In this document: in pieces, positions 117-61,775 of the stretch
Layout of the letters: each line of letters starts with the position of its first letter
Position numbering within the stretch: the stretch's first letter is position 1
DNA from: Rhodovarius lipocyclicus
GTDB lineage: Bacteria; Pseudomonadota; Alphaproteobacteria; Acetobacterales; Acetobacteraceae
Length of the DNA stretch: 62,666 nt
NCBI RefSeq assembly: GCF_009900765.1
Contig: NZ_JAAABL010000020.1
Location: 1-62,666 of the forward strand
Direction: 5' to 3'
Notes under the pieces: model-generated
Databases searched by the model: none
The model's input: the letters and a program-made list of their open reading frames with translations, nothing else
Told to the model about the DNA's origin: nothing
Program-made: the position numbers and the translations under genes

Positions 117-317
117 GTCAGGGGCTCTGCCCCTGACAACCCCGCCAAAGGCCGAAAGGCCCTTGGAACCCAGGCGTTTGGCGCCCATCCTGACAGGCAG
201 GGCGCCAATTATGTTATAAATATCAATAAGAAACACGTTTTCAGGATGTGGCGCCAACTGCTCGGGGTCCAGGGCCGCTACGGTCCTGGCGGGGGTGTCG
301 GGGGCGGAGCCCCTGAC
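117..317 (+). repeat. Family A structured intergenic repeat, copy A1
   Basis: A 201-bp element. Hairpin H1 is at 117-137 (9-bp arms, loop tct) and H2 at 145-165. The AT-rich core is at about 171-260, H3 at 269-289 (loop cta) and H4 at 297-317. The outer 55 bp at each end are imperfect inverted repeats of each other. The core carries ttggcgcc (178-185) facing ggcgccaa (201-208), then an AT-rich stretch and a third ggcgcc. It has the same length and orientation as copy A5. It fills most of the gene-free first 367 bases. I see nothing recognisable in bases 1-116. Confidence 0.85.
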
Positions 318-2083: not shown

Positions 2084-3077
2084 GGTTGCCGTCCGCCGCC
2101 ACCACCCGGTGGCACGGCACGGCGAGCGACACGGGGTTCTGCGCGCAGGCCCGCGCCACGGCGCGCGTGGCGGCCGGCGTGCCCATGCGGGCGGCCAGGC
2201 CGGAATAGGTGGTGGTCTCGCCCAGCGGGATGGCCTGCAGGGCCTCCCACACGCGGCGCTGGAAGGCGGTGCCGCGCAGGTCCAGCGGCAGGCGCAGCGC
2301 GGCCTGGGGCTCCGCGATGAAGGCCACGATCTGGCGCATGGCATCGGCCAGGGCCTCGGGCGCTTCCTCGATGGCGGCGGCGGGGAAGCGGTGGCGCAGA
2401 TCGCCTTCCAGCGCGTCCATCTCCTCACCGAAGCCGAGGAAGCAGATGCCGGCGGCGGTGGCCCCCACCAGCAAGGGCCCCATGGCGGAATCGGCGCGGG
2501 CGATGCGGATCACCTCTCCGGCGCCGCCGCGCCGGGCGGCGCCTGGGGTCATGCCCAGATGGCGGGCGGGGTTTTCGTACACGCGGCTTTCGCTGCCAAA
2601 GCCGGCGCCGGCGACGGCATCGGCCACGCGCTCCCCCTTCGCCAGCGCGGCCGAGAGGCGGCGGCCGCGCGCGTTCTCAGCGTAGGAGCGCGGGGTCAGG
2701 CCCGTGATCTCCTTGAACAGGCGCAGGAAATGGTGGCGGGCGTACCCCGCGCGGGCGGCGAGCGCGGCGAGGGAGGGGATATCCTCCGCTTCCTCGATCA
2801 TGCGCATCGCGGCCTCGATGGCGGCGCGGTGCAGGGCAGCGCGATCGCCCTTGGGGTCGCAGCGCTTGCAGGCGCGGAACCCCCCGGCCTCGGCGGCGGG
2901 GATATCGGCGAAGAAGCGGGTGTTGCGGCGCAACGGCGCGCGAGAGGGGCAGCCCGGCAGGCAGAACACCCCCTGCGTCGTCACGGCATACAGGAAGGGG
3001 CCGCAGGCGGGGGCCGCGTCACGCGCCACCACCGCCTGCCAGCGGGCTTCGTCGAGGGAGAGGGTCAGCGTGTCCAT
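1971..3077 (-). CDS. ada: Ada: methylphosphotriester/O6-methylguanine-DNA methyltransferase and AraC-type regulator
   Basis: A 368-residue protein with the full three-part Ada architecture. The N-terminal zinc domain has C39, C43, C70 and C73 in FCLPGCPSR and ACKRC; the first of these accepts methyl from phosphotriesters and triggers activation. An AraC-type helix-turn-helix covers about 95-180. The C-terminal MGMT domain has the acceptor Cys322 in AVPCHRVV. It repairs and senses alkylation damage. An upstream in-frame ATG (3152) would add 25 Pro/His-rich residues unlike the family, so 3077 is preferred. The final 37 codons overlap aat tail-to-tail and lie beyond the catalytic core. It lies 64 bp downstream of parDE in the same direction. 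Confidence 0.95.
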
Positions 3078-3141
3078 GCGGGGGTTGTGGCCTGGGTGGG
3101 GGGTGGGGTGCCATCCGGTTGGTGCGGTGGTGTGTGGGCGC

Positions 3142-3453
3142 TCACCCCGCATCGTCGCGATAATAGGCCAGGATATCGCGATGGCCTTCCAGGATGTTCA
3201 CCACTTCCAGCGCCTCCGCGCCGTATCGGAAGAAGATCACATAGCTTTTGAAGGCGAAACTGCGCATGCCCGGGCGCAGTTCCTCCCGCGGGCGGCCCAG
3301 CGTGCCCGGCAGGGCGGCCAGCCTGGCGCATTGGCGGTACAGCACCTCGGCAAAGCCCCGGCCCGTCGCGGCATTCGCGCTTTCCCGGGTGATATGGGCC
3401 TGGATCGCCAGCAGATCCTCCAGCGCGGCATCCAGCAGGATCAGCTGGCGCAC
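3142..3453 (-). CDS. parE: Type II toxin, RelE/ParE family
   Basis: A 103-residue protein with the compact ParE/RelE fold: an N-terminal helix pair (LILLDAALEDLLAIQAHI), a basic central stretch (LGRPREELRPGMRSF), the strand KSYVIFFRY and the strand EVVNILEGHRDI near the end. ParE toxins poison DNA gyrase, whereas RelE relatives cleave mRNA on the ribosome. The pattern and the ParD partner favour ParE. The start codon directly follows the parD stop codon (no gap), so the two are co-translated. The residues match the family and activity is inferred. Confidence 0.9.
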   Translation of the reverse strand: MRQLILLDAALEDLLAIQAHITRESANAATGRGFAEVLYRQCARLAALPGTLGRPREELRPGMRSFAFKSYVIFFRYGAEALEVVNILEGHRDILAYYRDDAG

Positions 3454-3705
3454 TCAGAAGCCGGCCTTACCCAGCTCCTCGGCCTTGGCATCCAGGGCGC
3501 GCAGCACGGCGGCCTCATCGTTGCGGCCGCCTCGCGCCAGGGAGGCATCCAGCGTTTCCCGCAGCGCCGCCAGCCTGGCTTCGCGTTCCTCCACCAGCCG
3601 CAGCCCGTCGCGATAGACTTCGCTGACCGTCGTGTAGCGGCCAGTGCGGACCATCCGGGCCGCGAATTCTTCCCAGTGGCTGCCTACGGATACGTTGGCC
3701 ATCAT
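3454..3705 (-). CDS. parD: Type II antitoxin, ParD family
   Basis: An 83-residue protein from the ATG giving MMANVSVG; an ATG one codon later is equally possible. The N-terminal ribbon-helix-helix reads NVSVGSHWEEFAARMVRTGRYTTVSEV, the classic ParD DNA-binding part. The acidic, helical C-terminus would wrap the toxin. ParD neutralises ParE and represses its own operon. A perfect 11-bp inverted repeat lies 29-56 bp upstream of this start and is the obvious operator. The extra nine residues from the upstream ATG (3732) have poor family resemblance. Confidence 0.9.
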   Translation of the reverse strand: MMANVSVGSHWEEFAARMVRTGRYTTVSEVYRDGLRLVEEREARLAALRETLDASLARGGRNDEAAVLRALDAKAEELGKAGF

Positions 3706-4403: not shown

Positions 4404-4609
4404 TTGAGGGGGCGCCGCCCCCTCAAACTCCCCCGCCAGGAGCCGAAAGGCCCCTGGACCCCATGAGTTTGGTGCTGACCTTGGGAAGGTGTTTCCCTTT
4501 GATATTTATAATATAATTGGCGCCCCACCTGCCAGGATGTAGCGCCAATTCCTGGGTTCCAAGGGCCTTTCGGCCTTTGGCGGGGAGCCCGAGGGGCAGA
4601 GCCCCTCGG
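4404..4609 (-). repeat. Family A structured intergenic repeat, copy A2
   Basis: A 206-bp copy in reverse orientation. H1 is at 4404-4426 (10-bp perfect arms, loop gcc), H2 at about 4436-4456, the AT-rich core at about 4460-4555, H3 at about 4559-4580 and H4 at 4589-4609 (9-bp perfect arms, loop aga). The core has attggcgc facing gcgccaat. The reverse complement of its core aligns with A1 and A5. It fills the gap between the Bug-protein stop and the TPR gene. Confidence 0.85.
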
Positions 4610-9602: not shown

Positions 9603-9953
9603 ATGAGCGTGCGGACGGATCTCATCGAGGATCTGATCGAGGAGGGCAAAATAGATTATGTGAGCCTCTCCGATGTATTATCGGAGGCCGAACAGCAGGG
9701 GGCGCAGATATCCGGCTCCGACGAATTCGAGCGCGCGATGTTCTTGCTCGAACAGATGCTGGAGTACGGTTTTGTCGCCGTCGATCTGGGCCCCGAGGAT
9801 GGCAGTTGCACCCCGTGGAAGGACCAGGACCATCAAGCCATCCTCGCCCGTGTCCGTCACGCCTGGAACACCGGCCCAGACCAGGACCTCGTTGCGCTGA
9901 CCCACTGGTTCTGGCTGCCCGAGCATCTGCACGGAGATCCCGCAGCCGGATGA
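9603..9953 (+). CDS. Hypothetical protein
   Basis: A 116-residue soluble protein that I do not recognise. The N-terminal half is acidic and helical (SVRTDLIEDLIEEGKIDYVSL). It ends in WFWLPEHLHGDPAAG, with several Trp. Base composition at 9640-9760 is lower in GC than the neighbours (atagattatg, gatgtattatcgg), suggesting transfer. The stop codon lies inside the start of repeat copy A3 (ggatga), so the present C-terminus may have been set by the repeat. Coding potential is supported by length, the GATGAGC start context and lack of any better frame. It is divergent from fumA. Confidence 0.6.
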   Translation: MSVRTDLIEDLIEEGKIDYVSLSDVLSEAEQQGAQISGSDEFERAMFLLEQMLEYGFVAVDLGPEDGSCTPWKDQDHQAILARVRHAWNTGPDQDLVALTHWFWLPEHLHGDPAAG

Positions 9954-10022
9954 GGCGCCAATTCCTGGGTTCCAAGGGCCTTTCGGCCTTTGGCGGGGTG
10001 CCCGAGGGGCAGAGCCCCTCGG
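9948..10022 (-). repeat. Family A repeat, half copy A3 (H3-H4 arm only)
   Basis: Begins ggatgaggcgccaattcctg, the same junction as in copy A2. It runs through H3 (about 9972-9992, arms ccaagggcc and ggcctttgg) and H4 (10002-10022, 9-bp arms ccgaggggc and gcccctcgg, loop aga). The other arm and AT-rich core are missing. It lies between convergent genes, and its first bases supply the stop codon of the gene ending at 9953. Confidence 0.8.
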
Positions 10023-13982: not shown

Positions 13983-14186
13983 CTGAGGGGCTCTGCCCCT
14001 CAGACACCCCGCCAGGAGCCGAAAGGCCCCTGGACCCCAACCGTTTGGCACCGCACCGGGCAACGGGTTTCTATTTGATTTTTATAAATGAATTGGCGCC
14101 CCACCTTCCAGGATGAAGCGCCAATCCGATGGGTTCCAAGGGCCTTTCGGCCTTTGGCGGGGTGCCCGAGGGGCGGCGCCCCTCGG
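13983..14186 (-). repeat. Family A structured intergenic repeat, copy A4
   Basis: A 204-bp copy in reverse orientation. H1 is at 13983-14003 (arms ctgaggggc and gcccctcag, loop tct), H2 at about 14011-14032, the AT-rich core includes gatttttataaatgaattgg, H3 is at about 14136-14157 and H4 at 14166-14186 (loop ggc). One extra ggggcagagcccc hairpin follows at 14202-14214. It fills the gap between cysS and trmJ. Confidence 0.85.
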
Positions 14187-29364: not shown

Positions 29365-29402
29365 GGGTGGCTCCGCAGGGGGCGTTGCCCCCTGGACCCC
29401 CA

Positions 29403-29603
29403 CCGAGGGGCTCTGCCCCTCGGAACCCCGCCAAAGGCCGAAAGGCCCTTGGAACCCATCGGATTGGTGCCCATCCTGACAGGTCCGACGCCAATTATAT
29501 TATAAAAATCAATAAGAAACACGCTGCCAGGATGTGGCGCCAACTGTTCGGGGTCCAGGGCCGCTACGGTCCTGGCGGGGGTGTCGGGGGCGGAGCCCCT
29601 GAC
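29403..29603 (+). repeat. Family A structured intergenic repeat, copy A5
   Basis: A 201-bp copy, same length and orientation as A1. H1 is at 29403-29423 (arms ccgaggggc and gcccctcgg, loop tct), H2 at about 29431-29451, the core has ccaattatattataaaaatc, H3 is at about 29554-29574 (loop cta) and H4 at 29583-29603. An additional hairpin cagggggc-gtt-gccccctg lies at 29376-29394. It sits inside a glycosyltransferase operon, between two genes read leftward. Confidence 0.85.
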
Positions 29604-47849: not shown

Positions 47850-48098
47850 ATGGGGCAGTTGAACATCAAGGACGAAGCTCTGGTCGCCAGGCTGAAGCAG
47901 CTGGCGGAACGGCGCAGCACGTCCGTGACCGATGTTCTGCGCCAGATGGTCGAACAGGAACTGCGCCGGGATGAGACCGAGGTGGCCCGGCGGCTGCAGG
48001 CCATCCGCGCCATCACCCGCGAATCCCGCAAGCTGTTTCCGGCGGACTGGGATGGCGACCATTCCTATCTTTATGACGAGAACGGGCTGCCGAAGTGA
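47850..48098 (+). CDS. vapB: Type II antitoxin, VapB family
   Basis: An 82-residue protein. GQLNIKDEALVARLKQLAERRSTSVTDVLRQMVEQEL is a ribbon-helix-helix-type DNA-binding start, like Rv0623-type VapB. The C-terminal half (AIRAITRESRKLFPADWDGDHSYLYDENGLPK) ends with the Asp/Tyr stretch typical of VapB tails that block VapC. It starts 27 bp after the glyQ stop and ends in a GTGA overlap with vapC. It lies between glyQ and glyS. Confidence 0.9.
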   Translation: MGQLNIKDEALVARLKQLAERRSTSVTDVLRQMVEQELRRDETEVARRLQAIRAITRESRKLFPADWDGDHSYLYDENGLPK

Positions 48099-48484
48099 TC
48101 GTGGACAGTTCGATCTTCATCGCCGTGCTGCGCGGGGAAGCCGGTTGCGAGGCGTATGAGGCGCTGCTGGTCGGCCCGCGCCCCGTGGTCACCTCCGCGG
48201 CCACCCTGGTCGAGGCCGCCATCGTCGCCGAAGGCAAGGGCGGGGAGGGGGCCGGGGCGGATCTGGATGCGCTGATCCGCGATGCGGAGATCGACGTCAT
48301 TCCCTTCACCGCCGAGCACGCCGCCCTGGCCCGCGACGCCTGGCGCCGCTACGGCAAGGGCCGCCATCCCGCCGGGCTGAACCTGGGCGACTGCTTTTCC
48401 TACGCGCTCGCCAAGAGCCGCAACGAACCCCTCCTGTTCAAGGGCGAGGATTTCGCCCGGACCGATGTGAAGGCTGCGATCTAG
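48095..48484 (+). CDS. vapC: Type II toxin, VapC-like PIN-domain ribonuclease
   Basis: A 129-residue PIN nuclease starting with GTG as VIVDSSIFIAVLRGE. Acidic metal ligands: Asp4 in VDSSIF, Glu in TLVEAAIV, Asp in LNLGDCFSYALAKS, and a last Asp near LFKGEDFARTDV. VapC toxins cut tRNA or rRNA. The GTG overlaps vapB by four bases. Its TAG shares a base with the glyS GTG, so toxin and synthetase subunit are translationally coupled. All four acidic positions are intact, so the toxin is likely functional. Confidence 0.93.
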   Translation: MIVDSSIFIAVLRGEAGCEAYEALLVGPRPVVTSAATLVEAAIVAEGKGGEGAGADLDALIRDAEIDVIPFTAEHAALARDAWRRYGKGRHPAGLNLGDCFSYALAKSRNEPLLFKGEDFARTDVKAAI

Positions 48485-61572: not shown

Positions 61573-61775
61573 CCGAGGGGCTCTGCCCCTCGGGCTCCCC
61601 GCCAGGAGCCGAAAGGCCCCTGGACCCCATCAGTTTGGCGCTGGTCCTGGGCAGGGGTTTCCGCTTGATTTTAATAATGAAAATGGCGCCTCACCTGCCA
61701 AGATAAGGCGCCAATCAATGGGTTCAAAGGGTTGCTACAACCCTTTGCGGGGATGCAAGGGGCAGCGCCCCTTGC
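61573..61775 (-). repeat. Family A structured intergenic repeat, copy A6
   Basis: A 203-bp copy in reverse orientation. H1 is at 61573-61593. The core includes gattttaataatgaaaatgg. H3 here is a different perfect 10-bp stem, caaagggttg/caaccctttg with loop cta (61725-61747). H4 is gcaaggggc/gccccttgc (61755-61775). An extra gggggc-aac-gccccc hairpin is at 61786-61800. It fills the convergent gap between aspS and yggS. Confidence 0.85.

Follow-up and report, generated by a model that had tools for sequence, protein, structure and literature searches.

RIME/ABC elements are intergenic mosaic palindromic elements of alphaproteobacteria, and RIMEs share inverted palindromic units placed around a linker. 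The names RIME and ABC have been given to palindromic elements of Rhizobium/Sinorhizobium (PMC2573895). BIME-1 of E. coli is described as a 140-bp element comprising one Y and one Z1 palindromic unit, with a reported link to strain-specific segments (PMC1187871), and REP units are reported to lie often between convergent genes (PMC1525189). In the account of REPINs given in PMC3116915, an inverted pair of hairpin units is the replicating unit and is mostly dispersed singly, and these REP doublets are proposed to be moved by RAYT.

Here, we describe a repeat of the Acetobacteraceae, starting from 62,666 nucleotides of a Rhodovarius lipocyclicus contig, referred to as the window. In plan, the element is most like BIMEs and REPINs. 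Like BIMEs, it is intergenic and mosaic, carries two unlike palindromic units and is of comparable length; unlike them, it has two hairpins per arm, an exchangeable core of ~88 bp and no RAYT-type enzyme in its genome. An intergenic mosaic of at least two types of inverted palindromic unit, the mark of a BIME, was found in 32/32 copies, with modules that vary, a likeness of plan. The likeness to RIME/ABC is one of general description. As in REPINs, an inverted pair of hairpin units is dispersed. REPINs are tied to RAYT genes, whereas PF01797 (Y1/RAYT) gave neither a match nor a candidate in R. lipocyclicus and no match in 13 family genomes (R. lipocyclicus and 12 others), with matches in 5 of 14 control genomes. 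By this test the element is not a REPIN. A RAYT/Y1 transposase as its mover was rejected, there being no PF01797 match in the R. lipocyclicus genome. Of the tetranucleotide tags (GTAG/CGTC) that mark the foot of REPIN hairpins, GTAG was not seen by eye at the feet of the arms; it occurs in the loops of some arm types.

The earlier note, made from the sequence alone, did not recognize a described element with this layout. That judgement holds as far as names go, since none was found in Rfam or in the literature searched, but a linker between inverted palindromic units is already known from BIMEs and REPINs, and the layout is a variant of this plan and not unprecedented. No Rfam family scored over its gathering threshold in the window, and the literature matches listed, among which subscription journals are thinly covered, contain no description of the element. 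These results support a dispersed, structured and apparently unnamed element family.

Copies, anatomy and distribution

Five full copies and one half copy had been proposed for the window, and all are present with the coordinates and lengths claimed. Copy 1 (117..317, plus strand) comprises a class 1 arm on the left, an AT-rich core, termed core I (177..257, plus strand; core HMM E 2.6e-20), and a class 2 arm on the right. Copy 4 (29403..29603; core I at 29462..29543, E 6.6e-19) is a full element in the same orientation, and the other three full elements lie on the minus strand, preserving the two-to-three split seen earlier: copy 2 (4404..4609; core I at 4468..4550, E 4.3e-24), copy 3 (13983..14186; core I at 14044..14126, E 2e-20) and copy 5 (61573..61775; core I at 61634..61715, E 1.9e-22). 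The half copy (9948..10022, minus strand) consists of a class 1 arm, matched by the arm HMM at 9966-10021 on the minus strand, and the edge of core I. Copy 3 is located between cysS, named by eye, and a gene for a SpoU-family methylase, and copy 5 between a class II tRNA synthetase gene and an Ala_racemase_N gene (Pfam), which are convergent. No transposase was seen among nine proteins from window genes flanking or close to the copies (Pfam), in agreement with the first reading, and neither tRNA nor tmRNA was found in the window. Two adjacent pairs of small genes, at 3142-3705 and 47850-48484, resemble by eye toxin-antitoxin pairs (ParDE-like and VapBC-like).

Structural conservation was assessed in an alignment, A2, of 32 of 38 distinct copies (the five of the window and 33 others), from which the shortened or irregular L005, L018, L019, L023, L025 and L032 were left out before counting. 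Polarity is fixed in all 32: a class 1 arm (H1-H2), a core of ~88 bp and a class 2 arm (H3-H4), so that the order of hairpins around a core read from the window is kept throughout, with hairpins 98.7-100% paired. In most copies the class 1 arm ends in GAACCCA, and the class 2 arm mostly begins with GGGGTCCAGG or AGGTCCAGG, followed by H3 and H4. Paired cells reach 98.7% in H1, 99.2% in H2, 100% in H3 and 99.2% in H4, and two long-range stems of the core are less paired (91.9 and 74.1% of cells). Over the whole structure, pairing is 94.5%, against 33-56% with the partners slid. Copy 1 folded as RNA gives z = -13.1, and copy 2 folded as DNA z = -11.4; RNAalifold on the core alone returned no consensus structure.

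Of the 46 pairs, 15 show changes on both sides, whereas shuffles average 11.2 and reach 15 in 4 of 500 cases; the cells so changed number 101, against a shuffle mean of 38. Further pair types number 29, below the shuffle mean of 31.8, and part of the covariation signal therefore comes from a small set of distinct hairpin types rather than from numerous independent compensations. Among 122 element ends of R. lipocyclicus and of one congener, G005, that carry a recognized H1-type hairpin, pairing continues beyond GGGGC/GCCCC by one pair or more in 94, of which 72 have four further pairs, and 28 have none; the letters of these further pairs vary widely. One R. lipocyclicus element, at C2 43145, has class 2 arms at both sides.

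The copy count that had been asked of a whole-genome search was obtained with R1, a covariance model built from the 32 copies of A2. Applied to the R. lipocyclicus genome (4.59 Mb, 111 contigs, 98.9% complete), it gave at least 150 rows, corresponding to at least 125 distinct places, of which at least 101 score 140 bits or more; the lowest-scoring rows are incomplete or weak matches. With copy 1 or copy 2 as the BLAST query, for each of which the best 40 of more than 200 candidates were scored, more full-length copies were retrieved from the genome (E ~1e-33 to 1e-84). R. lipocyclicus thus carries about a hundred or more copies, a high number that extends far beyond the window to which they might have been confined. 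The fold z-scores, full-length BLAST copies and covariance model matches confirm that the element is real and beyond chance. Four contigs begin 14-26 bases before a weak R1 match (C37:14, C61:17, C42:26 and C33:26), which suggests that assembly breaks at the repeats.

In the genomes sampled, the element is restricted to the Acetobacteraceae. At E 1e-10, a rough value as all R1 E-values are, 58 of 120 genomes of the family match, R. lipocyclicus included, and none of 56 alphaproteobacterial genomes outside it; the outside set of 58 was reduced by two, R. lipocyclicus itself and a match-free family member. Among 80 loci of named genomes searched with R1, one weak match (E 2.6e-5) was found, in Telmatospirillum. 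The cysS product is closest, among matches listed from which very close records may have been omitted, to those of Paracraurococcus (70%) and Roseicella (69%), and R1 had no match in stretches of ~21 kb from each of these. Copy 2 found no match in plasmids or phages by distant blastn.

Exchangeable cores and enclosed genes

The AT-rich core had been presented as part of the common plan. This is correct for core I, which is bounded by GGCGCC words and fills the window copies; it does not apply in general, since at least two cores exist. Core II, a long inverted repeat with a purine-rich left arm, replaces core I at C2:121482 of R. lipocyclicus and in 6 of 16 inspected elements of G005, one of them a short form. 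The two cores are unrelated and coexist in one genome. Different cores in the same shell also recur at loci of other family genomes: by eye, nine of 11 further loci, from nine genomes, were checked, and all had the shell, with cores that differ.

Arm and core HMMs were run on 463 kb of R. lipocyclicus and 1.54 Mb of G005. In these samples, 37 of 44 inward-facing arm pairs are spaced 70-96 bp apart, and the remaining seven are spaced 0, 26, 42, 56, 60, 565 and 1634 bp. Core I occurs with at least one arm in 30/30 matches (10/10 in R. lipocyclicus, 20/20 in G005), a count that does not support core I as an independent mobile unit, and with both arms in 26/30. Arms beside core I are class 2 in 20/20 matches of G005; of the ten in R. 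lipocyclicus, seven have an arm of each class, one has a pair of class 2 arms and two have class 1 only. A different H2 was found at one orthologous pair: L003 and its G005 orthologue, which lacks part of the core, are closely alike in flanks, H1, H3 and H4, with a different hairpin as H2. The simplest reading of these sequences would be an exchange of modules in place.

In three G005 shells, a gene takes the place of the core, flanked by a class 1 arm on one side and a class 2 arm on the other. The first (L347, C33:246704-247379) has a payload of 565 bp with 53% GC that encodes a 154-aa protein, and the second (L345, C22:59651-61390) a payload of 1634 bp that encodes a 523-aa protein, neither with a Pfam match. 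The third (L346, C11:1191863-1192830), beside cysS, encodes a DUF429 protein (Pfam E 5e-11; PADLOC profile PDC-S44, E 9e-24); here the HMM detects the class 1 arm only and the class 2 arm was recognized by eye. We take PDC-S44 to be the name of a candidate phage-defence profile of the PADLOC library. None of the three genes encodes a transposase by Pfam. Outside G005, in a search of 120 genomes, the 154-aa protein has weak matches (30-40% identity) in four, and the DUF429 protein a match in one, of the same class and outside the Acetobacteraceae; neither gene was found in the other congeners. No arms lie beside the cargo homologues at five loci scanned in other genomes.

Orthologous sites, gene ends and synteny breaks

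Insertion at copies 3 and 4 is demonstrated by orthologous sites of congeners that are empty of the element. At the site of copy 4, the glycosyltransferase genes of G005 (88-89% identity), G001 and G007 abut or overlap with no element between them; the remaining five congeners gave no orthologous match. The ~240 bp absent from these three genomes include an extra hairpin, H0 (29376..29403, unstranded), which lies directly outside copy 4 and is a weak arm match. An 8-bp word with one mismatch brackets the insert and overlaps start and stop codons; it is possibly a target duplication, though these codons would be kept by selection anyway. At the site of copy 3, G001, G002, G003, G006 and one G008 contig have cysS next to the methylase gene with no element, and a second G008 contig has another sequence of ~160 bp in the gap. 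In G007, this place is taken by a shell whose core is ~20 bp long, and in G005 the two genes are separated by ~34 kb, each with a shell next to it; G004, which is 69% complete, gave no match for the flanking genes. Near 1228123 of G005 contig C11, before the methylase gene, a run of ~20 C stands directly beside the shell and may be hypervariable or an error of the assembly.

Presence and absence were also observed elsewhere. At the site of copy 5, in a comparison that leaves out G001 as not judgeable, no shell is seen in six congeners over the 260 bp that follow the tRNA synthetase gene, and G005 has a shell with other arms and a reversed core. The site of L030 is element-free in G005, and no target duplication could be resolved at L030 or L019. 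The left flank of copy 1, 116 bp, is too short to judge.

The elements are located at the 3′ ends of genes, as called by a codon-usage gene caller made for this analysis. None of 42 R. lipocyclicus elements, taken from the window, 400 kb of contig C2 and the best BLAST loci and so not a random draw, crosses a called gene, which extends the earlier claim that all copies are intergenic. Five lacked a called neighbour; the other 37 comprise 25 between convergent, 11 between co-directional and 1 between divergent genes, against 7 convergent and 25 divergent among 77 element-free gaps of at least 150 bp (Fisher 2e-10 for convergence). From 33 shells of G005, one that overlaps a called gene was left out; 22 of the other 32 are convergent and none divergent, at a median distance of ~30 bp from the gene ends.

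Gene order was compared with G005 at 498 gene boundaries, 223 of which have both flanks mapped in a sample covering 29% of that genome. Discordance was found at 9 of 13 boundaries that bear an element, the window half copy among them, against 9 of 210 that do not (Fisher 9e-9); the flanks of copy 2, for example, lie 18 kb apart in G005. The excess holds against element-free gaps of at least 150 bp (2/37 discordant; p = 1e-5) and is weaker against element-free convergent boundaries (4/25; p = 0.003). Eight of the nine element-bearing breaks are co-directional. For the BIMEs of E. coli, an association with strain-specific loops has been reported (PMC1187871).

The evidence on a causal role of the elements is divided. 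In the case of copy 3, the congeners show the cysS-methylase order to be the older one, and shells stand at both of the new junctions in G005, that beside cysS being the gene-bearing shell whose second arm was recognized by eye, which counts for such a role. In 6 of 9 breaks, G005 has no element at either junction, which counts against it. Shells of G005 stand at the junctions of 3 of 9 breaks, two of which share one shell, and elements at both junctions of every rearrangement were not seen. A different AT-rich hairpin repeat (TTCTTCTTTTTCTGAAGAAAAAGAAG, AAGTTTTTTGGTTCTTTTTT) lies on the G005 side of 4 of 9 breaks, at the L010, L011, L033 and C2_6586 junctions, and tolerant gaps may therefore simply collect both repeats. 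The elements may mark such gaps and not cause the breaks.

Mobility and competing explanations

With moderate confidence, we favour a mosaic element of BIME/REPIN type, miniature and non-autonomous, that is dispersed in a lineage of the Acetobacteraceae, moved in trans and tolerated at gene ends. Two unlike double-hairpin arms, inverted, bracket an exchangeable payload, usually of ~88 bp, and new copies would be made by an enzyme that works in trans and recognizes the arms in their folded form. Such a mover would be other than a Y1/RAYT enzyme detectable in the R. lipocyclicus genome. Copies would survive chiefly where they are least harmful, between convergent genes, where the hairpins may in addition prevent read-through or shield the 3′ ends of RNAs. 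Hairpins and payloads would be swapped, and the chromosome at times rearranged, when copies recombine or convert one another. Our searches found neither a mobilizing enzyme nor an autonomous parent element.

The position at gene ends could also be explained by function. In favour of an element that is chiefly a bidirectional transcription terminator or 3′-end protection cassette, copied for its usefulness and with mobility as a secondary matter, are convergent placement in both genomes (25/37 and 22/32), the ~30-bp median distance from G005 gene ends and four near-perfectly paired hairpins. A TTTT run, present in 0.7% of random 16-mers, is also found in the 16 nt beyond the class 1 end of 7 of 41 copies. 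The same motif stands outside the class 2 end in 1 of 41 copies, and as 34/41 class 1 and 40/41 class 2 ends lack it, most copies are not canonical intrinsic terminators; the model of a GC hairpin followed by a T run was rejected with T runs at 8/82 ends only. Such a cassette would need neither a core of ~88 bp that is conserved, nor fixed classes of arm, nor a length of 200 bp, and congeners manage without the element at the same sites; we regard this function as rather unlikely to be the main explanation. In another reading, that of a MITE, the element would be an internally deleted relative of a conventional transposon, and an existing transposase gene would have the arms as its terminal inverted repeats. 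Its short, non-coding sequence, inverted ends, high copy number and empty sites are those of a MITE, and the three gene-bearing shells of G005, each with one arm of either class and the third recognized partly by eye, could be read in this way; but none of the enclosed genes is transposase-like (one DUF429, two without Pfam match), no clear target duplication was seen, and the arms are self-complementary hairpins of several types and not one conserved terminal repeat. No parent transposon sharing the arm termini was found in 463 kb of R. lipocyclicus and 1.54 Mb of G005, and we consider a MITE improbable.

The gene-bearing shells raise a further explanation, that the shell is a capture device with conserved end structures between which cores or single genes are exchanged in the manner of cassettes. 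At least two unrelated cores and three genes between class 1 and class 2 arms are consistent with it, as are cargo genes that are rarely matched elsewhere in 120 genomes and absent from the other congeners, and homologous cargo loci that were scanned and carry no arms. All known gene-bearing shells, only three, are from G005, and they are equally well explained if foreign DNA simply inserted into a core already present or if two shells recombined; we judge a capture device very improbable. A broader formulation, which we consider improbable, holds that the two unlike double-hairpin arms of a family-wide shell serve as a recognized frame for cores of nearly constant length (~88 bp) that vary between genomes, or for single foreign genes such as that of the DUF429 protein with its candidate phage-defence match, and that this constitutes a transposon-free system of gene capture and chromosome shuffling at gene ends.

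If the mobile mosaic element that we favour is right, a bacterial family has a repeat system whose outer hairpins remain recognizable although the middle varies by lineage, and a large part of the chromosome rearrangements sampled fall where its copies lie. It would offer one system in which to ask by what means palindromic repeats spread when no RAYT enzyme is detectable, and the same system bears on whether repeats cause rearrangements or mark tolerant sites. Annotators gain a definable element that matches about half of the Acetobacteraceae genomes sampled. At L019, two elements in opposite orientation (1502-1728 and 2890-3111) lie 1.2 kb apart, a possible composite unit.
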